In this document: positions 25,028-48,408 of the stretch, piece after piece
Position numbering within the stretch: position 1 is the stretch's first letter
How the letters are laid out: the number at the start of each line of letters is the position of its first letter
Source: Halodesulfovibrio sp. MK-HDV
GTDB lineage: Bacteria > Desulfobacterota > Desulfovibrionia > Desulfovibrionales > Desulfovibrionaceae
Assembly (NCBI RefSeq): GCF_009914765.1
Contig: NZ_WYDS01000001.1
Location: forward strand, 62,001-126,000
Direction: 5' to 3'
Length of the DNA stretch: 64,000 bases
Program-made: the position numbers and the translations under genes
The notes under the pieces: model-generated
Told to the model about the DNA's origin: nothing
The model's database searches: none
What the model saw: only the letters and a program-made list of their open reading frames with translations

Positions 25028-25033
25028 GAATGC

Positions 25034-25078
25034 TGGTGGGCCTAGCAGGATTTGAACCTGCGACCTGCCGGTTATGAG
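25034..25078 (-). other. Prophage attachment site: displaced 3' part of tRNA-Met (CAT)
   Basis: On the minus strand the sequence runs from an anticodon loop CTCATAA through the anticodon 3' stem CCGGC and a T-arm (GCAGG, TTCAAAT, CCTGC) to an acceptor end TAGGCCCA with encoded CCA. The bases on the 5' side (GCCCA before CTCATAA) cannot pair with CCGGC, so the gene is cut at or just upstream of the anticodon loop. The phage integrase lies 140 bases further in. This is best read as an attachment core, with a restored tRNA expected at the other prophage end outside the window. Confidence 0.8.
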
Positions 25079-25220: not shown

Positions 25221-26324
25221 ATGGCAATGACGAAACGGATTAAAACTCGTTATTCAGGAGTATATCAGCGTACATCTGAAAAGCGACGCCATGAAGGGCG
25301 TCCAGATGTTTGTTATGACATTACCTACAAAATAGGGTCAAGGAAAGTCTGGGAAAAGGTCGGGTGGAAATCGGAAGGTATAACGGCTGGTTTTGCTAGT
25401 CAGGTTAAGAATGATCGTTTGTCTGAAGTACGAAAAGGTAAGGCTCCTACTAAGACAAAGCATATTACACTGAACAAAGCGTTTGAGTTGTATTGCAAAA
25501 CGCATCTCGCTGCTACAAAGTCGGAACGACGGATACGCAGCATGTATTGTTCTGGTGTTAAGCCTGTTCTGGGACATAAGATGATCGCCGAAATTTCTGT
25601 ACGAGATATGCAACAACTTGCGACTTCTTTAGTTGGTCAAAAGGCCCCTGCCACTATACGGCATTACGTAAGCATTGTTCGTTCCGTATATAATAAATTG
25701 ATAGAGTGGGGAGATTACACTGGCGAGAACCCAGCTCGGGCGATTAAGATTCCTCGTGTCGATAATGACCGCACTCGATTTCTTACCCGATCAGAAGCTT
25801 CTATGTTGCTGGATGAGCTTTGTTGCAGGAGTTTGGATACCTTCAGGATTGCATTAATTTCCTTGCACACAGGGATGCGCGCAAGTGAAATTTTTGGATT
25901 AATGGGAGAGAACGTTAATCTGTCTGAGGGATTTATATATATTAATGATACAAAGAATGCTTTAAGTCGTGTTGCGTACATGACAGATGCTGTGCGTAAG
26001 ACTTTTGAAGATATTGAACCGCAGGCCGGAGAGATTGTTTTTCCTGCCCGACATGGTGACTTTCGCGAAGAAGTGCCAGATACCTTTGAAAGGGCCGTAA
26101 AAGAATTAGGGCTAAATGATGGCTTAGCAGATACACGCGATAAAGTCGTGTTTCATACGCTTCGGCATACATTCGCTTCTTGGCTTGTTTCTGAAGGGGT
26201 ACCATTGAAAACAATTCAAGAGTTGCTTGGTCACTCCACCATTAGAATGACAGAGCGGTACGCAAAGCTTGCACCAGACAAAAAGGAAGAAGCTGCACGT
26301 TTATTGAATATGCTGCTGAAATAG
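25221..26324 (+). CDS. Phage tyrosine integrase
   Basis: A 367-residue tyrosine recombinase. It has an N-terminal arm-binding region, a core-binding SAM-like domain (THLAATKSERRIRSMY ... ATIRHYVSIVRSVYNKL) and a catalytic domain. The catalytic residues are Arg220 (TGMRASEI), Lys245, His312 and Arg315 (HTLRHTF), His338 (LLGHST) and Tyr347 (RYAKL). It should mediate integration at the adjacent tRNA-Met. AGGAGG at 25205-25210 supports the ATG at 25221. The gene ends at a bidirectional terminator shared with the convergent early operon. Confidence 0.95.
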   Translation: MAMTKRIKTRYSGVYQRTSEKRRHEGRPDVCYDITYKIGSRKVWEKVGWKSEGITAGFASQVKNDRLSEVRKGKAPTKTKHITLNKAFELYCKTHLAATKSERRIRSMYCSGVKPVLGHKMIAEISVRDMQQLATSLVGQKAPATIRHYVSIVRSVYNKLIEWGDYTGENPARAIKIPRVDNDRTRFLTRSEASMLLDELCCRSLDTFRIALISLHTGMRASEIFGLMGENVNLSEGFIYINDTKNALSRVAYMTDAVRKTFEDIEPQAGEIVFPARHGDFREEVPDTFERAVKELGLNDGLADTRDKVVFHTLRHTFASWLVSEGVPLKTIQELLGHSTIRMTERYAKLAPDKKEEAARLLNMLLK

Positions 26325-32012: not shown

Positions 32013-32988
32013 ATGAGTTTTGACGCAATGCGCTGGGTTTGGAGCCTACAAATTGTAAAAGGGACAGACAAGTTTGTTCTTCTATCTATGGCAGATAGGG
32101 CAGACGAACGGCACTGCTGTTATCCTTCGATGAGTAGGCTACAGTTTGACACTGGCTTAAATATTAAAACAATTGAGGCAGCACTGCGCCGATTAAGAGA
32201 TGCCGGAATAATACAGAAAACAGGGCGTAAAATGGGCCAAACAAAAAGTACGCCCGAGTACCGATTAATTGGTGTGCGTGGGCGTGAAGAAGCCTTTAAA
32301 GAAACGAAGCACATTTGTAAAACCGCCACCTTTTCTGAACAGAAAAAAAAAGCACCCCCAAAATAGGAGTACCCCCAAAAACGGTGCACCCCCAATTTTA
32401 CCAACAAGCTACCCCGAAATAGGGGGTGGGAGCTCCCCCAATTTTACCGAGAAGCACCCCCAAAATAGGGGGACAGAACCTATCATAGAACCAATCAGTA
32501 AACCTATCACTGAATCTTCCACTTCTTTCCCTGTGGGTGAAAGTTTTCCGTTGGCATCAACTCAGCAAATAAGTCAGCAGCAAATAATTTGCACTTTGCC
32601 GTTGAATGACGGTTCTGACTTCGAGGTGACTCAGGGCTTTGTCGCAGAGGTAGCTCCGCTGTACCCAAACGTGGATGTGGTTCAAGCATTAAGAGCCATG
32701 AAGGGGTGGCTTATTGGAAACCAGAAGCGCAGGAAGACGCGCAGGGGCATAAAGGCGTTTATTACTGGGTGGCTTTCCCGTGAACAGGATAAGCCGAAAG
32801 CAGTTGGGGCGGCTTATGAGCAAGGGCAAGCACCGCAGCCGAGGTCATACCGTGACTGTGTGGACTTGGAGCAGCGGCAGGAGAATGATTTCTTGAATCA
32901 GCTACAGGAGCAGCTTGATGGAAAACGTGACAGTGGAGCGAATTCGCTTGGAGCTGGGCAAGCTCAATCTGCGATTACACCCAACTAG
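32013..32988 (+). CDS. Phage replication initiator, split by a +1 A9 tract
   Basis: Frame one from ATG 32013 encodes a winged-helix domain (residues 1-110, HTH_36 type) and runs into an A9 tract at 32343-32351, after which it stops at 32366. The next frame continues without stop through a Pro/Asn-rich linker to 32988. Its C-terminal domain includes PNVDVVQALRAMKGW and GIKAFITGWLSREQDK, a segment typical of phage replication proteins that contact the helicase. With eight A the gene encodes one 324-residue protein, close to lambda O in size and architecture. The linker DNA holds an iteron cluster. It could be a sequencing error, a real break or a slippage site. Confidence 0.75.
32354..32469. 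repeat. Iteron cluster inside the initiator gene (candidate phage origin)
   Basis: Six related elements begin at 32354, 32371, 32388, 32411, 32434 and 32456. Two are identical (ACCCCCAAAATAGG at 32354 and 32456). The others are variants such as ACCCCCAAAAACGG, ACCCCGAAATAGG and CCCCCAATTTTACC. Start-to-start spacing is 17, 17, 23, 23 and 22 bases. This resembles the iteron array of lambda ori, which also lies within the initiator gene between its DNA-binding and helicase-contact domains. Confidence 0.6.
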
Positions 32989-35347: not shown

Positions 35348-35971
35348 ATGAAGGGATGTAGACCGCTTTCTGGTGTGGAAGTGAGAAGAGTGCTTGGTAG
35401 CTTTTCCGGCTGGGAAGAGCAGCGCGATAGAACGCTGTTCCTGCTGGGAGTGACGAGTGGTTTTCGTATTTCTGAGCTGTTGTCTTTGCGAGTGCGTGAT
35501 GTTGTGCGGAGTAAGCGCGTGGTGAAAGAGATAGAGGTTAAGCGCGCCAATATGAAAGGCAGACACGAAAGCAGACAAATCTATCTAAACCGACAAGCGC
35601 AGCAGGCTATCTTGTCGCTGATCCACTCCATGCAGCAGCGCGGAGTGTGGAGTCACGACAGCTTTCTATTCAAATCAAGACAAGGGAAGAATAGCCCCAT
35701 TACCCGGGTGCGGGCGTATCAGATTCTTTCAACCGCGTTTAGGCATGCGGGCCTGTCCGGAAAGCTTGGGACGCACTCCATGCGGAAAACCTTCGGCAAC
35801 AATGTCTATGAACATATGCTGAACCTCGTAGCGAAAGGCGTAGGCGTGGATGCTTACCGCGAAACAGCCAAAGCTCTAGGCCACAAAAGCGTGGCGAGTG
35901 CAGAAAATTATCTGTCGTTTCGTAACGAACATCTACGGGCAGCAATTGACCAATTTGAGGTGTGCTTATGA
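35348..35971 (+). CDS. Second, minimal tyrosine recombinase
   Basis: A 207-residue protein that is almost only the catalytic domain of a tyrosine recombinase. The active-site set is complete: Arg40 (TSGFRISELL), Lys70, His143 and Arg146 (THSMRKTF), His179 (ALGHKS) and Tyr188 (ENYLSF). There is no arm- or core-binding N-terminal domain. Since the prophage already has a full integrase, this enzyme may resolve multimers, invert a segment or mobilise cargo. It overlaps the following excisionase-like gene by 4 bases. Confidence 0.85.
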   Translation: MKGCRPLSGVEVRRVLGSFSGWEEQRDRTLFLLGVTSGFRISELLSLRVRDVVRSKRVVKEIEVKRANMKGRHESRQIYLNRQAQQAILSLIHSMQQRGVWSHDSFLFKSRQGKNSPITRVRAYQILSTAFRHAGLSGKLGTHSMRKTFGNNVYEHMLNLVAKGVGVDAYRETAKALGHKSVASAENYLSFRNEHLRAAIDQFEVCL

Positions 35972-36168
35972 GTGCAACGATAACGCTGACAGTCGCACAG
36001 GTCGCAGAGCGGTTAGGAATCAGCCCAAAGTATGTACGCAAGCTGATAAAGCGCGGAGAGCTAAAGGCCAGCAACGTAGGCTCGTCACATAAGCCACTTT
36101 ATAGAATCCGTCAGCAAGCAGTAGAAACTCTTTTAGATGAACGCACAGTAACAGGAATTGAGGAGTAG
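35968..36168 (+). CDS. Excisionase-like HTH protein
   Basis: A 66-residue helix-turn-helix protein (LTVAQVAERLGISPKYVRKLIKRGELKA, HTH_17 type). Its ATG overlaps the recombinase stop in an ATGA, so the two are translated together and probably function together, for instance as a directionality factor. Confidence 0.8.
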   Translation: MSATITLTVAQVAERLGISPKYVRKLIKRGELKASNVGSSHKPLYRIRQQAVETLLDERTVTGIEE

Positions 36169-36172
36169 CGAG

Positions 36173-36364
36173 ATGACAGCAGTAGCACCGGTAATGCTCA
36201 AGAACATGCAGCAGATTTGTGAAGCATTCGGCAAGAGCCGCAAGACCATCATCAAATGGCGTACGGAAGGGGCACCGATCTTTAAGGACGGTGGTGTGTA
36301 CGGGGCAGAGTTAAATGCAGTTGCTAGGTGGTTGGTGGAGCGGGGAAACAAATTTGCCTGTTAG
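36173..36364 (+). CDS. Nu1-like small HTH protein
   Basis: A 63-residue protein (MLKNMQQICEAFGKSRKTIIKW then EGAPIFKDGGVYGAELNAVARWL) resembling the N-terminal winged helix of Nu1-type proteins or phage regulators. The ATG at 36173 follows GGAGTAGCGAG. The 3' end of this gene recurs, with only synonymous changes, at 37482-37547 on the far side of the lipoprotein cargo. Confidence 0.75.
   Translation: MTAVAPVMLKNMQQICEAFGKSRKTIIKWRTEGAPIFKDGGVYGAELNAVARWLVERGNKFAC
36278..36343 (+). repeat. Direct repeat copy 1 (3' part of Nu1-like gene)
   Basis: This 66-base segment encodes IFKDGGVYGAELNAVARWLV plus ERG. A diverged copy lies at 37482-37547. The two differ at about eight positions, all in third codon positions, so the peptides are identical. 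Confidence 0.85.
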
Positions 36365-36860: not shown

Positions 36861-37397
36861 ATGAAAAAGTTAATTGTCCTGTTTATTTTTTCACTGCTAT
36901 TTTTACAAGGCTGTAGCACAAAAGTGTTTACTACCCATCTGGTGCCCGAAGAAGTTGCCTTCTGCCAGAATGAGACTGATAAGGGATTGAAAAAGATTAC
37001 TGTTCAATCTCAAATTCCTTCTCAACTGATTATGATTGATGAAAAGAACTTTGCTTTAACGTTGCAGACTACTTTAGCGTTATCTGGTATTTTTGGTAAT
37101 AAAGTCCCAAAATATCAGATTGATGCAACTCTTGTTGAGTTAGGTTCCTCAGGTGTATCTATAGAGTTTCCAACTGAGTTGAAAGTCCAATACAGAATCT
37201 ATGCACCAACTGGAGAGCTCCTTGGCGTAAAAACAATTACCACAAACGGTAGAGCAAATGGTTTTGAAGCTCTTTTGGGATCAGTAAGAGAAAGGCTTGC
37301 CCGTGAGAGGGCAATTCGATCACAACTTGTTCGGTTTGTGCAGTATGTTATTGAAACGGTTCGTGCGAACGAATTGCGGATGAAGAAAGATAAATAG
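36861..37397 (+). CDS. Prophage-encoded lipoprotein (cargo)
   Basis: A 178-residue protein with a lipoprotein signal peptide (KKLIVLFIFSLLF) and lipobox LQGC (Cys18). The mature part is predominantly beta-like (KYQIDATLVEL, LKVQYRIYAPTGELLG) with a C-terminal basic helix. It has its own upstream promoter candidate and a strong terminator, the usual layout of a moron. Phage lipoproteins often alter the cell surface or block superinfection; here that is inference, and no family was recognised. Confidence 0.8.
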   Translation: MKKLIVLFIFSLLFLQGCSTKVFTTHLVPEEVAFCQNETDKGLKKITVQSQIPSQLIMIDEKNFALTLQTTLALSGIFGNKVPKYQIDATLVELGSSGVSIEFPTELKVQYRIYAPTGELLGVKTITTNGRANGFEALLGSVRERLARERAIRSQLVRFVQYVIETVRANELRMKKDK

Positions 37398-37449: not shown

Positions 37450-37481
37450 TTTGTGAAGGGAGATGAATAAAGAACGTCCCC

Positions 37482-37556
37482 ATCTTTAAAGACGGGGGCG
37501 TATATGGCGCTGAGTTAAATGCAGTGGCTAGGTGGTTGGTGGAGCGGTGCACTTAG
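37482..37556 (+). pseudogene. Remnant 3' end of a second Nu1-like allele (direct repeat copy 2)
   Basis: The frame encodes the same 22-residue peptide as 36278-36343 and then ends in Cys-Thr and a stop at 37554. No start or 5' part is present. All differences from copy 1 in the shared part are synonymous, so this is the tail of a homologous gene from a related phage. It marks the right boundary of the inserted lipoprotein unit. Confidence 0.8.
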
Positions 37557-37583: not shown

Positions 37584-39960
37584 CTACGCAGCTGGTTTTA
37601 CCCCTATACTTTGGAGCAAGGAGTTATATTGCGGCTCATCTGCGTCTGCAATCTTTTGAAGCACATACTCTGCGGCGGTTTTCATTTCTGGTATACTTAT
37701 GGGATTTCGTGCTCTGTCAAACTGATCTTCGGTATGAGAAAATTCATTTACTAATCTAAAAACAAGAGCTTTTTCGATTTTTTCTTCAGGAAAGAACCTA
37801 TTAAATTTGGATTTCCAGTCGTCATTGCTCGGGAATTTAAAATATAGATAGCACTCAAGAAATTTTCTGAGATTGTTACCGAGGCTATGATAGTAGTTGT
37901 AATCTTGAGTTTCTGTGTCTTCCAGTGAGCATTTATGTATTTCTTCAAAGAGGTAGTTAAACTCTGTCGCGTGTAGTTTTAAATATTTAGGCATAGGCGA
38001 AAGATACGAACGAGTTCCATCATTTTGAAGTAGGAATAGAGATTTTTGATCTTTTTTTTTCACCAAGGGCAGGATTTCCTTTGGGAGGTTTGGTCATTGC
38101 CTTTAGGTACTTAAGAAAGTCTAGGTTGTGCGTTGATATGAAAAGTTGCTTGTATGTAGCCTCTTTCGCGATAACTGACTCTATTAAGCTGTAAATGAAA
38201 AAGACATGGTTACTGTCTAAACTTGAGATTGGATCATCAATCCAGACGATAGCATCATTGATTTTATCTTGTAGTGAACCTAGTTTTGCAATGAAGTAGC
38301 AAAATGCAATGAGAGAACATTCCCCTTCACTAAGGTTCTTTGCTGGAGAATCTCCTCGGTATAAACTAAATTTGGTTCCTTTTTCTTCATCCACACATTT
38401 AAGGGTAAGCGAAGAGTGCCCAAAAAAGTTATTTAAATATTCTGTTACCTTCTTCGCTCCTTCTTTTTCGTCACTTAACTGATCTTCTAGTAATTCAATC
38501 TCGCTATTCAGTTCTTTAAGATTTGTCTTGTAGTGAAGATACGTTTCTTTCAACTTACCTGTATTACTACATTCATTCTGGAGTTTTTTTTTCTTTTGCT
38601 CCAAGTGGACTAGAGGCAATAATCTTAAGTACCTCATTAAATCTTAGTTTTTTTCTTAGCTTTTTTTTTGTTTGTCTTCAAATTGAGCTGACAACTCATT
38701 ATGCTGTTGCATAATTGATAAGAGCTTTTCTTGCTCAGTTGTTAAGTCTGATTGATTAAACGACGACGAAATTGGATCGAGTGGCTTGAAAATGTTATTC
38801 TTGCGTTGAACTAAGCTATCTTCGATTTTTCTTAAAGCGAGAATATAAGCTTGAAATGCATTATTGACATTCTTTTCCTGGGCAGTGAATTGCTCTGCCA
38901 AATTTTCAAAGAGAGCTGCTGCTGGTGGGGAAGGAAATGAGTCGAATTTTTCTTGTTCTTTTTTAATTAAATTTATTTGTGAAGAGAGCTCTTCTTGAAC
39001 AATTTCTACTTCTTTAGAGAAATGATCATCAAATGTTGCCCAAAGTTTTTCGGGAATATCACCGCCGCAAAATACGCATATTTTTCTTTTACCCTTATGG
39101 TGTGTTATTCCGTCTTCAACCCATTTGTTTAGTTCAGTATCTTCAGCGAGTTCTTCAATGACCTTTTGAGCAGAGACCTTTTTACACAGCAGAGTATTAG
39201 CGTTACTTATTAATTTGCTATAGCTTGAGGGCGTTAGGTCAGGAATATGAAGCTCACCTTTATGTTTCGATTTCAAAATACAAGTTAAGTCATGACTACT
39301 TTCTTCTGTAAGGAGGCATTCGAATTTTTCTGTATTGATTTGCTTGAGATCGTTTTCTATCTGTTTTTTTGTGTAAATGCTTTTATCTAGAAGGTGCGGA
39401 TAATCCTTTTTTAATGCTAATGCACATTTTTTTAAAACATCACCTATCTCTTGTTCTATTACTTTAATGCTCTTTGTATTATCTGAATATTCCTTACTGG
39501 CTAGATTAAAATCTTTTGCGATGCCTAATTCATCATTTCCAATTTCTTTGCGCAGCTGATCAATTTTTGATTGGATTTCAACGTTACCTCCCCCCAAAAG
39601 TGCAAAAGGTTCAATCTTGCTATCTTCATCTACCAAGAATTTTAAATTCTTATGAATAAAGTCCTTGTTGTATACATATGTGGATAACTTTTCTAAAGGA
39701 AAAGCAGTATCGGTATAGTGTTCAGCCTGATCGTCCTGTTTGATTTGAATTGAAATAGATGCTGCGTTGTATTTGTTGAGTATATCTTTATTTGAAATAG
39801 AATGTACTATCCTTGATAGTGTAGTTTTTCCTGCATAATTGTGACCATAGATAATATTCATTTTACTGAATTTTACTTCATTTCCATGGTCTGTGACAGT
39901 GCTGTTCCAATCAAAATTATTAAAGCATCCAAGATCAATTTTTGAAAATTTTTCTATCAT
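37584..39960 (-). pseudogene. RloC/PrrC-like AAA_13 ATPase with zinc hook and HEPN-like end, four homopolymer frameshifts
   Basis: The N-terminal part has a Walker A motif GHNYAGKTT (residues 39-47) and a long coiled coil with a CVFC zinc-hook-like pair near residue 298. The next part has the ABC signature region LSEGECSLIAFCYF, Walker B IVWIDDPISSLDS and the switch His in LFISTHNLDF. The C-terminal part has NLRKFLECYLYFKFP and RLVNEFSH, a possible HEPN Rx6H nuclease motif. RloC and PrrC are anticodon nucleases activated during phage infection. Coding-strand A tracts at 38661-38669, 38648-38654, 38584-38592 and 38052-38060 each carry one extra base, and correcting all four gives 790 residues. 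The ATG at 39960 is the likely start. Confidence 0.75.
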
Positions 39961-40097
39961 GATTAGCTCGCGATTTTTTGAGTAGTGGCGATTTTTCCAA
40001 CGTTTGCTAGTTAGTATTCGCTTACGCCTCTTCAATCTTTCTGTAAATATCGCATTGCAAATATGTCATTATGCTGGCTAATTACCTTGCTTTGCGT

Positions 40098-40132
40098 AAA
40101 AAGACGTCCAAGTTGTAAAAACAAGGACGTCT
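40098..40132 (-). terminator. Terminator downstream of the cargo membrane gene
   Basis: On the minus strand AGACGTCC and GGACGTCT form a stem, with further pairing inside the loop, followed by TTTTT. It separates the membrane gene from the ATPase gene, so the two are probably transcribed separately. Confidence 0.8.
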
Positions 40133-40181
40133 GATCTTTGAAAAAATTTGGAATTTTAGAGTTTTTGTCAGATGGTTGAAA

Positions 40182-41583
40182 CTAGTTTTGAGTCGGCGTC
40201 CAGTTTGCCTTGTCCATACCTTTGCCACCTACCGTTCGAGACATATTATTAAAGCCTTTTTCATACAATGATTCGGGTGTTCGTTCTATTTGAATACTAT
40301 TTGTCAACTTTGCGAATAAGTCGCCAATTGAGTCAATATTATTTGTGTTATTTGCAAGGATGATTTCTACAGTAGTCAGTTGGTCTTGTAATCGAATTAA
40401 TTCTTTTGAAGTTTGTTTATATGCAGCAAATAAAAGCTGTATGATAAAGATCAATAACGACAGAAAAGCTATCCGAATAGCGACACTTTCCCAGTCAATT
40501 GGCTGGTATTCTTTTAAGCGCTCATTGAGTGCATTTACCTCCGTTGCAATTTTTTTTAAGGAGTAGGGGGTAATTTATTTTTTCTCCGGAAATAGAAAGA
40601 GTATCGATTTTTTCTAATTCGTTAATGATTTCGGAAGCGGTATTTTGATTAATTGACTGGTTGGACTTGGGTTGCCATACGGTAATGGTTTGTTCTGAAC
40701 TTGTTGTTATTTTTTTTCGTTCTAACGTTTCAATTTTATGAGGATTTAGATTCGCTAACCTAGCTTTCATTATCTTAGTTTTTATTGAAGCAATTTTTGT
40801 ATCCAGTCCATCCTGTTCAATGACTTTTGCGATTCTTTCAGTGTTTACGGATCGTGCCGCTGCGTTAATTTCTGACATTACTGAGTTTCCAGCAAAGTTA
40901 CTGAAAAACCAAACTCCGATTAATAAACTGGAACATATTGCTACGATAATAAAAAGTTGTTTTAAATGTTGAATGCTAACTTGGGACTCTAACCTGAATT
41001 TTAAGTTAGCTAGCGATGAACATTCATCCGATGAATGTACTGGGACATTTGTTTTTGAGTGTTGTTTTGTGTTCAAGAAAGATTGAATTTTATAAATAGA
41101 GGTAGCAAGCGCGATAAGGAATAATGAAAAAAACGATAGCAGAGTGTAGGAAATTGCAATGTGAAGTAGTAGAGCGGTTAAATTGTAAATTCTGCCTAAT
41201 TCAAAATCTGTATTGACGTAGTTTGTCATCCATTGAAATAGGTTAATGTTTATATTCCAAATTATGTTGAGTAGGATGAAAAGAAAGAAAAGTGAGAGTG
41301 CTTTGTTACTGTGAGAAGTTGTCCAACTAACTTCTTTTTTCTTTATAATTTTTACTAGTATTCTTAATGATATGAGTGATATAATGGAATAATAGATGAT
41401 AGAGAAGCTTTCAATAATAATTTTATCGTATTCTGTAACATGTGTTTCAAGATTAAAGGTCGGTATATATTGCCATGTAAGACCGCCAGTGGAAAAAACG
41501 AGAATGATGATTGTGAGCCAAAATAACGAATTGTCAAACGCTGTCCCTGTACCAATTATTGAAGTTTTTTTTCTATGAAACAC
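40182..41583 (-). pseudogene. Polytopic cargo membrane protein broken at an A8 tract
   Basis: From GTG 41583 the frame gives about 353 residues with six or so membrane segments (LFWLTIIILVFSTGG, LSLFFLFILLNIIW, LLSFFSLFLIALATS, LFIIVAICSSLLIGVWFF). It then stops just after the coding-strand A8 tract at 40557-40550. With seven A the frame continues (KEYQPIDWESVAIRIAFLS) through another membrane segment to 40182, 466 residues in all. I do not recognise the family. It lies between a PLD-like gene and an RloC-like ATPase on the same strand. Confidence 0.65.
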
Positions 41584-41652
41584 GACTAAGCCCTATATAT
41601 TTCCTAGTGCAAGAGTAGATTCAATTTGCATGCTTCTAGTTACGTGTGTTTC

Positions 41653-43017
41653 TTAGACACTATGAATTGTAACATTATAGCCTAACGCGTGCAGTGCCTT
41701 ACTTGTTCTACCATTTCGAGGGGGATATTGGTTTGGCATTGCCCAGCCAATGAGCTCTCCAAGAGCACTGATACCAAGGTGTGGTATTTTTTCGTTTTCA
41801 TCATGAGTTGCAACAAAAAGCCTTTCAGGAACAGAGTCGATATCGCCTCCATATAAAATGTAATAGATTAGTTCTAATGGTGAATTCCCACTTGGAGTTC
41901 GTTGGCCGTATAGCCATTTGGTGAGAATTGGTAACCGTTCATCGAAGCTGAGTTGTTCTAGTTCAGAGGTAACACCATAAATTGACAGTTCCATTCTTCG
42001 TGCGTGGTTCATAAAAGCGTGCACTTTTGAAATCATTCTGCAAAATTCTTCTTCAGTCAAAAATAAAATTTTGTCGGGACTACATAGGTCTTTGACGATC
42101 GGAGCGTTTTCAAACAATGTTTCAGCTTCACTAGATGGAGCAGTTTGTTCAGTGCGCCACCAACTAATTACTTTATCTACCGCTGCATCAATGTCAGTGC
42201 AGTTTTCTGCATGAAGTTCTTGGTAAGGGTATCTAGAACCTTCACGAACCAAAATGTAGTAATATGCGTGTAGAAATTGATCCACCAGTGCGCCTGCCGG
42301 AACTTCTTGAGTTAACCAAGGTGGAAGATTGTCTGAGGTTGAAATTCGTTTTGCAAGCTGTCTTAGCTGCTGAAGAGTAGCATTCCATTCATCAAGAAAT
42401 TTGTTTTTCCGTTTTTCCGTAACCGTTTTAGGGGTTACATTAGTTGGAAATTGGGCGTGGAAGGATTGGAAGTTGTTGTCAAAGTCATTATCGAGAGCCA
42501 TATTTGTTTTTCGTCTTCTCTCTTGCTTTTTCTGGTGTCGCTCAATGTAGTTGTATATTTCTTCGGTCAACGGTTTTGAGTGTTCCTGAGTTGCTGTAAA
42601 AATATCGTTTAAATCTTGTTCAAGATTATTTTCTAAAATTTCTTCATGGGGATAAAAGGTTCCAACTTCCATATTTGAGTTCCAAGCCCGATCTGTGAGG
42701 TTGGCGGAACCTATATATGCCCCATATCCTACCCACCAAATTACCTTGGAATGCAAGTAGCCAAAGACAAGATTACAAGAATAATTAGCGCTACTTGATT
42801 TAAGAAAGTTCTTTAAAATTCCAAGTGAGATGGGGATTGATGAATCCATTCTTCCCCAATATGTGAGTTTGGTTCCAGATTTTTTGCATTCCTCAAAAAG
42901 TTCTGGAACATTTCCCGCGTAGGCAACAGCTGCCTTTACTTCTTCAGCTTCCCTGCATCCTGTTTTAATATGGTTGCGTAAGTATTGTCCGTTCATCCAA
43001 TTGGCGATTATTTGCAT
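41653..43017 (-). CDS. Phospholipase D-fold protein (putative nuclease), cargo
   Basis: A 454-residue protein. The N-terminal 150 residues carry one PLD-type motif, YLHSKVIWWVG followed by GAYIGSANLTDRAWNSN. His89, Lys91, Ser104 and Asn106 match HxK...GSxN, but the Asp normally found five residues after Lys is not present. PLD-fold nucleases with a single motif act as dimers, and several are restriction or defence enzymes. The C-terminal 300 residues are mostly helical and not recognised. The ATG at 43017 follows a GGGGGC site. It is 69 bases upstream of the cargo membrane gene. Confidence 0.7.
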   Translation of the reverse strand: MQIIANWMNGQYLRNHIKTGCREAEEVKAAVAYAGNVPELFEECKKSGTKLTYWGRMDSSIPISLGILKNFLKSSSANYSCNLVFGYLHSKVIWWVGYGAYIGSANLTDRAWNSNMEVGTFYPHEEILENNLEQDLNDIFTATQEHSKPLTEEIYNYIERHQKKQERRRKTNMALDNDFDNNFQSFHAQFPTNVTPKTVTEKRKNKFLDEWNATLQQLRQLAKRISTSDNLPPWLTQEVPAGALVDQFLHAYYYILVREGSRYPYQELHAENCTDIDAAVDKVISWWRTEQTAPSSEAETLFENAPIVKDLCSPDKILFLTEEEFCRMISKVHAFMNHARRMELSIYGVTSELEQLSFDERLPILTKWLYGQRTPSGNSPLELIYYILYGGDIDSVPERLFVATHDENEKIPHLGISALGELIGWAMPNQYPPRNGRTSKALHALGYNVTIHSV

Positions 43018-43085
43018 TTAGCCCCCGTATGATTTTTACCAGTGTTTTAATTTGTCCCTACACGTAACGGTTTTATTTTTTATTA

Positions 43086-43340
43086 CTATTCAGTGAAGTT
43101 AACCATCGCCAGCGTGAGTAGCGAATGAAAATCAGTAACATCTCCAACTGAAGAAGGGATGATGTTAAAACACAAATTATTCACTGCCTCATAATCCATT
43201 TCTTCAATGTCATCTAAAAGGTCATCTAAATCGTACGCTACATGCTCGTGATCAAAGACAGGTTCTAAAAGGTCGTTAAGAGTTTCTGCATCTGATTTTT
43301 CCAACGCCTGATCAATTTCAATTTGGATGTTTGTATCCAT
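43086..43340 (-). CDS. Very acidic small cargo protein
   Basis: An 84-residue protein with about 22 Asp/Glu, a single Lys and no Arg, including YDLDDLLDDIEEMDYEAV. GGAG lies upstream of the ATG at 43340; an in-frame TTG at 43352 would include that site. Such composition fits an inhibitor, antitoxin or DNA-mimic protein, but no family is recognised. It is the first gene of the minus-strand cargo block, 68 bases before the PLD-like gene. Confidence 0.65.
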   Translation of the reverse strand: MDTNIQIEIDQALEKSDAETLNDLLEPVFDHEHVAYDLDDLLDDIEEMDYEAVNNLCFNIIPSSVGDVTDFHSLLTLAMVNFTE

Positions 43341-44467: not shown

Positions 44468-44971
44468 ATGGCTGGCCGCAAGACTTCCTATAAGAAAAGC
44501 TACGTAGCCCAAGCGCGTGAAGCATGCGCTATGGGGGGCTTTTCTAATGCTAAATTAGGAAGGCTGTTCGGCGTAACAAAGAACACCATTTGGAAATGGC
44601 GCAAGAAGTATCCGGACTTTGACGCAGCCTGCAAACAGGGCTTTGAAGACTTTGCGATAGATGAGGCGCGTGGCTCTCTTATGAAGCTTGTGAAGGGCTT
44701 CAGTTTTACTGAGGTTACCAAGGAGGCGGTAACCAACAAGCTTACTGGTCAGACTTTGATGCTTGAGACAAAGCGTGTGCGAAAGCATGTGCAGCCAAGT
44801 GTTAATGCTGTGAAGATTGTTATGGATAGGGTTGATGCAGAGCAGGCCACCCAGCAGACAAGCGGTGAGTTGTCGGATCTGATTGCAGAGATCGATGGTG
44901 TAACCCGTTCGCTGACTCCAACAGAGCGTGGTTTGTTGCCTGAAGATGGAGACGCAGCATGTCCAGCATAA
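44468..44971 (+). CDS. Terminase small subunit
   Basis: A 167-residue protein with an N-terminal helix-turn-helix (AMGGFSNAKLGRLFGVTKNTIWKWRKKYPDF) and a helical C-terminal part. It precedes and overlaps the large terminase gene by 13 bases. TerS recognises phage DNA and activates packaging. Confidence 0.85.
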   Translation: MAGRKTSYKKSYVAQAREACAMGGFSNAKLGRLFGVTKNTIWKWRKKYPDFDAACKQGFEDFAIDEARGSLMKLVKGFSFTEVTKEAVTNKLTGQTLMLETKRVRKHVQPSVNAVKIVMDRVDAEQATQQTSGELSDLIAEIDGVTRSLTPTERGLLPEDGDAACPA

Positions 44972-46674: not shown

Positions 46675-48408
46675 ATGAATCTGCTTGTCAAAGAATTACA
46701 GCAACGCCTTCGTGTTCTTAAACAGAGCCGCAAAAGTGCAGAAGAAGACTGGCAGGAGCTTGCAGAATATTTGCAGCCTCCGAAAGCCCGTTTTTTCAGT
46801 GACGATTCAACGGATGCTGAGAATCGCGAGCTGATCTGGAGTTCCATTCCAGAAGATGCGTTGCAACAGTTTGCAGCTGGCATTCATTCTTTGCTGACGA
46901 ATCCTGCACAGACTTGGTTGCACACTGCTCTCACAGGGAAGGGGGCTGAAGAGCTTTCCTCAGATGTGACTGAATGGGCTTCTGAAATTGCAGGACTCAT
47001 CATGGATGCTTGCAAGCATGAAGAGGCGGGCTTCGATTCCAAAATGAACGAATGTTATCTCGACTATGGAACATTTGGGCAGATGGGGTTGTTCGTTGAA
47101 GATCCAGAAGACGACTCGCCAATTCCGTTCTCTTCCATTTCTCCGCATGAGTGTTTCATTTCTGAGAACAAGCACGGGATCGTTGATACCTTGTTTCGGC
47201 GGTTGGAGCTCACTGTGCGACAAGTGCAGGAACGTTGGGGCAAGCGCAAACGTGGGCTTACCTCAGACATTTTTCAGAAGCGTACGTACTCGGATCAGGT
47301 GCAGCGCAAGATAGACCGCCAAGAATTGGAAGATAAGGTTTTCGTTTGGCAGGCCATCTACCCGCGCAAGCATGGTGAATGGTCTGAAGAAGCAACCATA
47401 CCAAGCAAGTTCATGTATGCCTCTGTGTTCTGGGAAGAAGAAACTAACCAGCTTCTTTCCGAGGGCGGCTACAGAGAGCAGCCTTTCATGTTTGCGCGGT
47501 ACTCGAAATTCTCCGGCGCAGAGCCTTGGGGACGTGGGCCAGCACATATTGCGCTGCCACATATCCGCTTGCTTCATGCACAGGAAGATTCCAAAGATGG
47601 TGCCATTCAATCGCAGTGTGAACCAGCCTATGCCGTTGATTCCGGCATGTACAAGGGTGGTATCAACACAGATTCAGGCGCAACTAACTTTTACGAAGCG
47701 AGCTCCGTAACCGGAGAGCGACACTACGGAATCTATCCAATTTCTTCCGGTGCAGATGTAAATGCAGTCCATATGACCACCAAAGAACGAGCTGGGGAAA
47801 TCCGTTCGATCTTCTTTAACGATCAGCTACAAATGGTGGGTGGCCCGAACATGACGGCCTACGAAGTAGCTCTTCGTGATTCTAAAAAAATGATGTTGCT
47901 TCTTCCTATGTGGGGACGACTTGCAACGGAATTTCTTCCGATCTTCGTTAACCGCATGAACGGCATTCTTGAACGCCGTGGCGATATTCCAGAAGCACCA
48001 GACGTGCTGCATTCACTTATTGAACAGGGTGAAGTGTCCCGTTTGAAGGTTGCATATGTTTCCCCGATTACGATGGCGCAAAAGGCATCTGAGGCGCAAA
48101 CATTCCAACGTGCGCTTGAGTACATCAAGCCTATGGTGGAGATGAACCCGCAAGTTATGGATAACTTCGATTTGGATGAGGCTGTTCGGGATTCGCAAGA
48201 GCTGTTTGGCTATCCTGCAAAGTATCTTGTTGACGCAAAAGAACGGGATGCTGGCCGCAAGCAACGGCAGGATATGGCAGCGCAGGCGCGAGACTTACAG
48301 GCAGGCAAAGAAGTGGCTGACACAGCCAAAACAGTTGGCGAAGCCGCAACAAATGCTGATGCGATTGCAGGAGCAGTTGAGCAGCTTCAAGGGGGAATGA
48401 GTGCGTAA
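46675..48408 (+). CDS. Portal (head-tail connector) protein, podovirus type
   Basis: A 577-residue protein of the T7-like head-tail connector family (PF12236): SAEEDWQELAEYLQPPKARFF near the start, WSSIPEDALQQFAAGIHSLL, then MTTKERAGEIRSIFF and a helical C-terminus ending in AIAGAVEQLQGGM. Twelve copies form the ring through which DNA enters and leaves the head. Confidence 0.92.
   Translation: MNLLVKELQQRLRVLKQSRKSAEEDWQELAEYLQPPKARFFSDDSTDAENRELIWSSIPEDALQQFAAGIHSLLTNPAQTWLHTALTGKGAEELSSDVTEWASEIAGLIMDACKHEEAGFDSKMNECYLDYGTFGQMGLFVEDPEDDSPIPFSSISPHECFISENKHGIVDTLFRRLELTVRQVQERWGKRKRGLTSDIFQKRTYSDQVQRKIDRQELEDKVFVWQAIYPRKHGEWSEEATIPSKFMYASVFWEEETNQLLSEGGYREQPFMFARYSKFSGAEPWGRGPAHIALPHIRLLHAQEDSKDGAIQSQCEPAYAVDSGMYKGGINTDSGATNFYEASSVTGERHYGIYPISSGADVNAVHMTTKERAGEIRSIFFNDQLQMVGGPNMTAYEVALRDSKKMMLLLPMWGRLATEFLPIFVNRMNGILERRGDIPEAPDVLHSLIEQGEVSRLKVAYVSPITMAQKASEAQTFQRALEYIKPMVEMNPQVMDNFDLDEAVRDSQELFGYPAKYLVDAKERDAGRKQRQDMAAQARDLQAGKEVADTAKTVGEAATNADAIAGAVEQLQGGMSA

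Follow-up and report, generated by a model that had tools for sequence, protein, structure and literature searches.

A block of four genes on the minus strand, at positions 37584-43340 of a 64,000-nucleotide stretch of the genome (4.17 Mb in size) of Halodesulfovibrio sp. MK-HDV, was analysed as putative anti-phage cargo of a prophage; the whole stretch is referred to below as the window, and positions are given in its coordinates. In 5' to 3' order on the minus strand, the block encodes a small acidic protein (43089-43340; 84 aa, isoelectric point (pI) 4.05), a PLD-like protein (41656-43017; 454 aa in one unbroken open reading frame (ORF)), a polytopic membrane protein (40525-41583; a 353-aa part with five predicted transmembrane segments) and an ABC-type ATPase. 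The membrane protein has a probable continuation in another frame (40185-40553), consisting of one transmembrane helix followed by coiled-coil-like sequence. The ATPase is spread over three ORFs, with an N-terminal part (38659-40035), a middle part (38023-38637) and a C-terminal part (37587-38066), and all homology searches used the separate ORFs, with frames left unmended. An earlier note on this DNA, made from the letters alone, had described four opposite-strand genes that were AT-richer than the phage late genes; all four were present where it placed them, and the difference in composition was borne out, the cargo genes having a GC content of 33-40% (third codon position (GC3) 0.29-0.36) versus 48-52% (GC3 0.46-0.63) for the phage terminase, the portal and a 1976-aa late gene.

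The block lies within a prophage of approximately 41 kb, extending from about 25033 to 66117. The left attachment core (attL; 25033-25078, plus strand) is an exact 46-bp repeat of attR, which was located inside a tRNA-Met gene (L017:2072-2117) at the window-equivalent positions 66072-66117, beyond the window end, and the prophage integrase (25221-26324, plus strand; PF00589, 7.2e-30) adjoins attL. These repeats enclose the cargo, in agreement with the earlier description of the block as prophage-borne. On one side the block is flanked by the replication region, with an O-like initiator and an endolysin-like gene, and on the other by genes for packaging, with the small terminase subunit at 44468 and the portal/head-tail connector at 46675; the cargo runs on the strand opposite to these. 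Carriage of defence genes by prophages is common (PMC9519451).

The membrane gene is separated from the ATPase by a terminator-like hairpin (GACGTCC...GGACGTC, then TTTTT; approximately 40098-40133, minus strand), which was seen in the sequence and in RNA folding, with a predicted fold z of -1.7 and a U-tail; a consensus scan for such elements did not list it. Given this hairpin, the acidic, PLD and membrane genes on the one hand and the ATPase on the other are probably separate transcription units.

The PLD protein was matched over its whole length by the PHROG family phrog_28026 (E=1.3e-139), and scored just below the cut-off of Pfam PLDc_2 (26.7 versus 27). No solved relative was found by sequence search. 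In its predicted structure (predicted local distance difference test score (pLDDT) 79.5), residues 1-165 form a PLD nuclease fold and residues from about 200 to 454 a helical C-terminal domain. The closest folds to the former were SauUSI (Z 15.9, 3.2 Å over 156 residues), NucT (Z 15.2), Nuc (Z 14.2), BfiI (Z 12.8) and NgoAVII (Z 11.3). Among 20 PLD sequences, H89, K91, G103-S104-A105-N106 and E117 were invariant, giving the motifs H89xK91 and GSAN103-106. The protein had been proposed to be a single-motif PLD protein, and this held, with the HxK and GSxN motifs and the downstream acidic residue invariant and a PLD nuclease fold predicted.

The PLD protein shares an N-terminal PLD domain with the type IV enzyme SauUSI (a PLD nuclease joined to a helicase), its best structural match, whereas sequence identity is 19%, its all-helical C-terminal domain is unlike that of SauUSI and it has no helicase domain, no helicase match being found in the 454 aa with Pfam, PADLOC or NCBIfam. 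With the restriction endonucleases BfiI and NgoAVII and with Nuc and NucT it shares the single-motif nuclease fold, but the Asp of the HKD motif is not conserved and the C-terminal domain has no structural match. DrmC of DISARM also has a PLD-like motif and gave a weak match, far below the DrmC cut-off (NF038319, 27.2 bits versus 133; PADLOC, 2.2e-07). DrmC identity was rejected on that score and on the lack of drm genes among the neighbours of the block; no DISARM genes were found in the block itself. A function on lipids, in which the protein would act as a phospholipase together with the membrane protein, was also considered, as the PLD superfamily includes lipid enzymes and the membrane gene adjoins. 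SauUSI, NucT, Nuc and BfiI, to which the fold is closest, all act on nucleic acids, the architecture is single-motif, no transmembrane segment was found in the PLD protein and its homologues lack membrane partners, all of which makes a lipid substrate extremely improbable.

The C-terminal domain, when folded alone, was predicted with high scores (pLDDT 90.6, predicted template-modelling score (pTM) 0.88), and no convincing Foldseek match was obtained for it in the PDB or in a library of viral models. The only chains reaching Z>=2 were the DNA glycosylases MjOgg (Z 2.7, root-mean-square deviation 5.0, 138 residues aligned) and Mag2 (Z 2.2), which is below noise. Profile comparison with hhalign against Nth and MutY, two subfamilies only, gave a probability of <1% (control, Nth against MutY, 100%), and the HhH-GPD glycosylase lead was thus unsupported by comparison with these profiles. 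In the most conserved stretch of the domain, GWA-P---PPRNGRTSK-L--LGY, arginine, asparagine and lysine are frequent, a composition that would be compatible with contact to nucleic acid; PPRNGRTSK, WA and DQFLHA are among its conserved motifs.

Homologues of the PLD protein were surveyed at approximately 30 loci in phages, plasmids and genomes. Full-length homologues with 37-43% identity were found in viral contigs (24 contigs, that of the window counted) and were typically single genes near tail tape measure, head-protease or integrase genes. Others were carried on plasmids of Rhizobium, Ensifer, Bosea and Roseomonas, or stood in chromosomal defence-like loci. Defence-type neighbours of some homologues included type I restriction-modification (R-M) genes at two loci (L002 and, by inspection, L011), AbiE/AbiEi (L004), an HmaC-like ATPase (L050) and a PD-T7-4-like gene (L012). 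The last is in a prophage of a genome from the same family, where the PLD homologue is on the opposite strand between baseplate and late tail genes. In that prophage, the PLD homologue and the PD-T7-4-like gene stand together at L012:9159-11368.

Across the roughly 30 loci, the PLD gene was usually without a conserved partner, and nothing recognisably related to the membrane protein or the acidic protein stood beside it. The membrane protein had no match above noise in Pfam, NCBIfam, PHROG or PADLOC and no homologue in 348 genomes of the class, plasmids, IMG/VR or the phage set. For the acidic protein, no family match was found in the same four collections of models and no homologue in 199 genomes of the class, plasmids or IMG/VR. 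In a sample of genomes from the phylum, only two marginal matches were obtained for these two proteins, and a weak match of the acidic protein to the C-terminal region of the PLD protein (E 0.07 to 0.5) was treated as chance. The earlier note had suggested that the acidic, PLD and membrane proteins form a separate unit and had named a neighbourhood survey for the PLD-membrane pair as a check; neither the trio nor the pair was recovered. A multi-gene system of the three, for example a nuclease effector with a small regulator and a sensor or effector in the membrane, would fit their common strand, their gaps of approximately 70 bp, their like composition and the terminator-like hairpin that follows the membrane gene. 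In view of the PLD loci without any recognisable partner of these types, and of the lack of membrane and acidic homologues beside the PLD gene in all collections searched, such a system is judged very unlikely. That the acidic protein is an antitoxin silencing the nuclease is likewise highly improbable: it is small, has a pI of 4.05 and is encoded directly upstream of the nuclease gene, but it is an orphan, and PLD homologues have no conserved small gene upstream.

In the ATPase, the N-terminal part carries Walker A (GHNYAGKTT), a coiled-coil region and a CVFC zinc hook (39067-39078), the middle part an LSEGE signature, Walker B (WIDDPISSLD) and an H-loop (STHN), and the C-terminal part a HEPN domain with R67xxxE71 ... 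H111 and an Rx6H motif (RLVNEFSH). All three ORFs matched Pfam AAA_13 (PF13166; 9.5e-60, 6.8e-53 and 2e-19 for the N-terminal, middle and C-terminal parts, respectively) and, more strongly than any other model, PADLOC PDC-S06 (PDLC04887; 1.3e-95, 1e-76 and 2.9e-55), to which they aligned at consecutive, non-overlapping model positions. Searches against defence-system models, which the earlier note had named as a check, recovered this model in every part of the ATPase; for the PLD protein they returned the DrmC similarity only below threshold. No solved relative of the ATPase was found by sequence search. Ten other genomes of the class have homologues, for the most part with an intact frame of approximately 760-850 aa. 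In an alignment with six homologues, Walker A, the hook, LSEGE, Walker B, the H-loop and the RxxxE ... Rx6H series were all conserved, CVFC being aligned with CAFC, CLFC or CRFC, and because they are conserved in intact homologues these motifs are not due to chance. The claim that the protein is a zinc-hook/HEPN ATPase like RloC or PrrC is upheld by this conservation of the RxxxE...H triad, Rx6H, hook and ABC motifs. One homologue in the class (L043, G259:C9:23896-24909) has four in-frame stops, and degraded RloC-type genes thus occur elsewhere in the class.

Comparison with prototype RloC proteins was by published motifs and residues only, and these identify the ATPase as an ABC-HEPN anticodon-nuclease homologue of the RloC type. 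The RloC proteins of Geobacillus kaustophilus and Acinetobacter baylyi likewise have an ABC ATPase split by a coiled coil, a CXXC hook and a C-terminal HEPN domain with an RxxxE...H triad at near-equal spacing. The catalytic residues of G. kaustophilus RloC are R692, E696 and H737, with 41 positions from E to H (PMC2610378); in the ORF at 37587-38066 the triad is R67, E71 and H111, again as RxxxE, with an E-to-H distance of 40. Published RloC proteins have the same motif order and a length of 658-897 aa (PMC2610378), and the three parts of the cargo ATPase together come to approximately 770 aa. RloC and PrrC have HEPN domains described as Rx4-6H RNases, and carriage by a prophage, as here, has been recorded for a small subset of the RloC family (PMC3710099). 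The cargo ATPase differs from the prototypes in being divided over three ORFs in the assembly and in having PDC-S06, not a named RloC model, as its best PADLOC model. It shares the ABC motifs and the RxxxE...H triad with PrrC, and its middle part matched the PADLOC PrrC model (1.1e-13), but PrrC has no zinc-hook insert and its gene is linked with a type I R-M locus, whereas the cargo ATPase has the hook and no R-M genes were found in the block. On these two grounds the protein is classed as RloC-type rather than PrrC-type, and PrrC identity was ruled out.

The frame of the ATPase changes at A9 tracts (38661-38669, 38584-38592 and 38052-38060), and that of the membrane gene at an A8 tract (40550-40557), after which the second ORF runs in another frame to 40185. 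Such changes extend beyond the block. The O-like replication initiator gene of the same prophage (32013-32988) lies in two frames, the change falling at an A9 tract (32343-32351), with PHROG initiator-family matches covering both parts, and all four of the clear prophage cases at runs of 9 are broken, with no read-through. Over 1.2 Mb of this genome, clear ORFs read through A/T runs of 8 in 25 cases and were broken at them in 3, of which at least 1 is a gene boundary; for runs of 9-10, 5 were read through and 2 broken. Mid-gene breaks at A/T tracts of 8-10 were found on the chromosome in genes that, by reading of their translations, are PlsC-like acyltransferase (L018:532-539), VgrG-like (L076:11657-11666) and TPR (L088:1771-1779) genes. 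These breaks hint at homopolymer errors in the assembly or at widespread slippage; the excess of broken 9-runs in the prophage over the chromosome is suggestive, the cases being few. An IMG/VR contig is 100% identical to the window copy and probably derives from the same assembly, so that it would add no information on the breaks.

Similar breaks in genes of this assembly that have nothing to do with the cargo mean that the splits in the ATPase and membrane genes may stem from decay, from slippage or phase variation, or from errors in sequencing, with no means of telling these apart here. Decay would mean that the ATPase and membrane genes are real pseudogenes that arose through poly-A indels, and that the PLD gene alone is still functional. 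The four breaks in the cargo (three in the ATPase, one in the membrane gene), the split initiator and the internal stops of the L043 homologue speak for this. Every break lies at an A8 or A9 tract, however, with no further lesion in motifs or sequence, the breaks on the host chromosome fit homopolymer calling errors or slippage equally well, and the identical IMG/VR copy probably shares the assembly; decay of the cargo is accordingly rated as rather unlikely.

The block is interpreted, with moderate confidence, as accessory cargo of the prophage from an AT-richer source, carrying two independent putative anti-phage modules, an RloC-type ATPase and a stand-alone PLD nuclease. Once acquired from there, it would have come to lie on the opposite strand between the early and the late region, and the membrane and acidic proteins would be unrelated or locally acquired cargo. 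According to the mechanism published for the family, the ABC ATPase with its coiled coil and zinc hook would sense DNA ends or damage, and would then free the C-terminal HEPN anticodon nuclease, with a stop of translation as the outcome; as judged here from motifs, the cargo ATPase, if made, may cleave tRNA. The single-motif N-terminal domain of the PLD protein may dimerise to form one metal-independent phosphodiesterase site that would cut nucleic acid, most likely invading DNA, with the helical C-terminal domain (PPRNGRTSK, WA, DQFLHA) perhaps selecting the target. Carriage of the PLD gene on its own by many prophages probably serves to exclude rival viruses.

Several points weigh against this interpretation. 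The ATPase and membrane genes are out of frame in the assembly. The canonical Asp of HxK(x4)D is absent from the PLD family (V, R or K in alignment A1, consensus R in alignment A2), and the family has no curated defence model among the models searched. The count of defence-type neighbours, which has no background rate, describes a pattern and is not a statistic. Defence activity, protection of the lysogen and nuclease action of the PLD protein are what we infer.

RloC in a prophage is already on record, and the stand-alone PLD nuclease family is little described or undescribed, nothing on it having been found in the literature searched. What makes the cargo interesting is the PLD family: an intact single gene for a 454-aa protein that recurs in unrelated prophages, on plasmids and in the neighbourhood of defence genes, and in which the catalytic fold of restriction nucleases is, according to the structural model, paired with a C-terminal domain that is predicted with confidence and has no clear relative among solved structures. 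If the protein protects lysogens, it would be a compact superinfection-restriction enzyme made by one gene. A bolder proposal makes it an undescribed restriction factor that acts as a single protein and is carried widely by prophages. Its C-terminal domain would then be a new kind of nucleic-acid reader, possibly a base-flipping, glycosylase-like one without the catalytic Asp, that steers the nuclease to phage DNA which is modified or marked in some other way; this is speculative and is considered unlikely.

Just upstream of the cargo, a second tyrosine recombinase was found (35348-35971), which is short (207 aa, catalytic domain only) and is followed by two small helix-turn-helix (HTH) genes. 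Between an HTH gene (36158-36364) and the cargo lies a lipoprotein-like gene (36861-37397, plus strand; 178 aa) with an LQGC lipobox-like start and no family match in Pfam or PHROGs, possibly a separate moron. This gene is flanked by a 69-bp near-duplicate pair (36275-36344 and 37479-37548, 87% identical) from the 3' end of the HTH gene at 36158-36364; the pair abuts the cargo and looks like a recombination scar of its acquisition.

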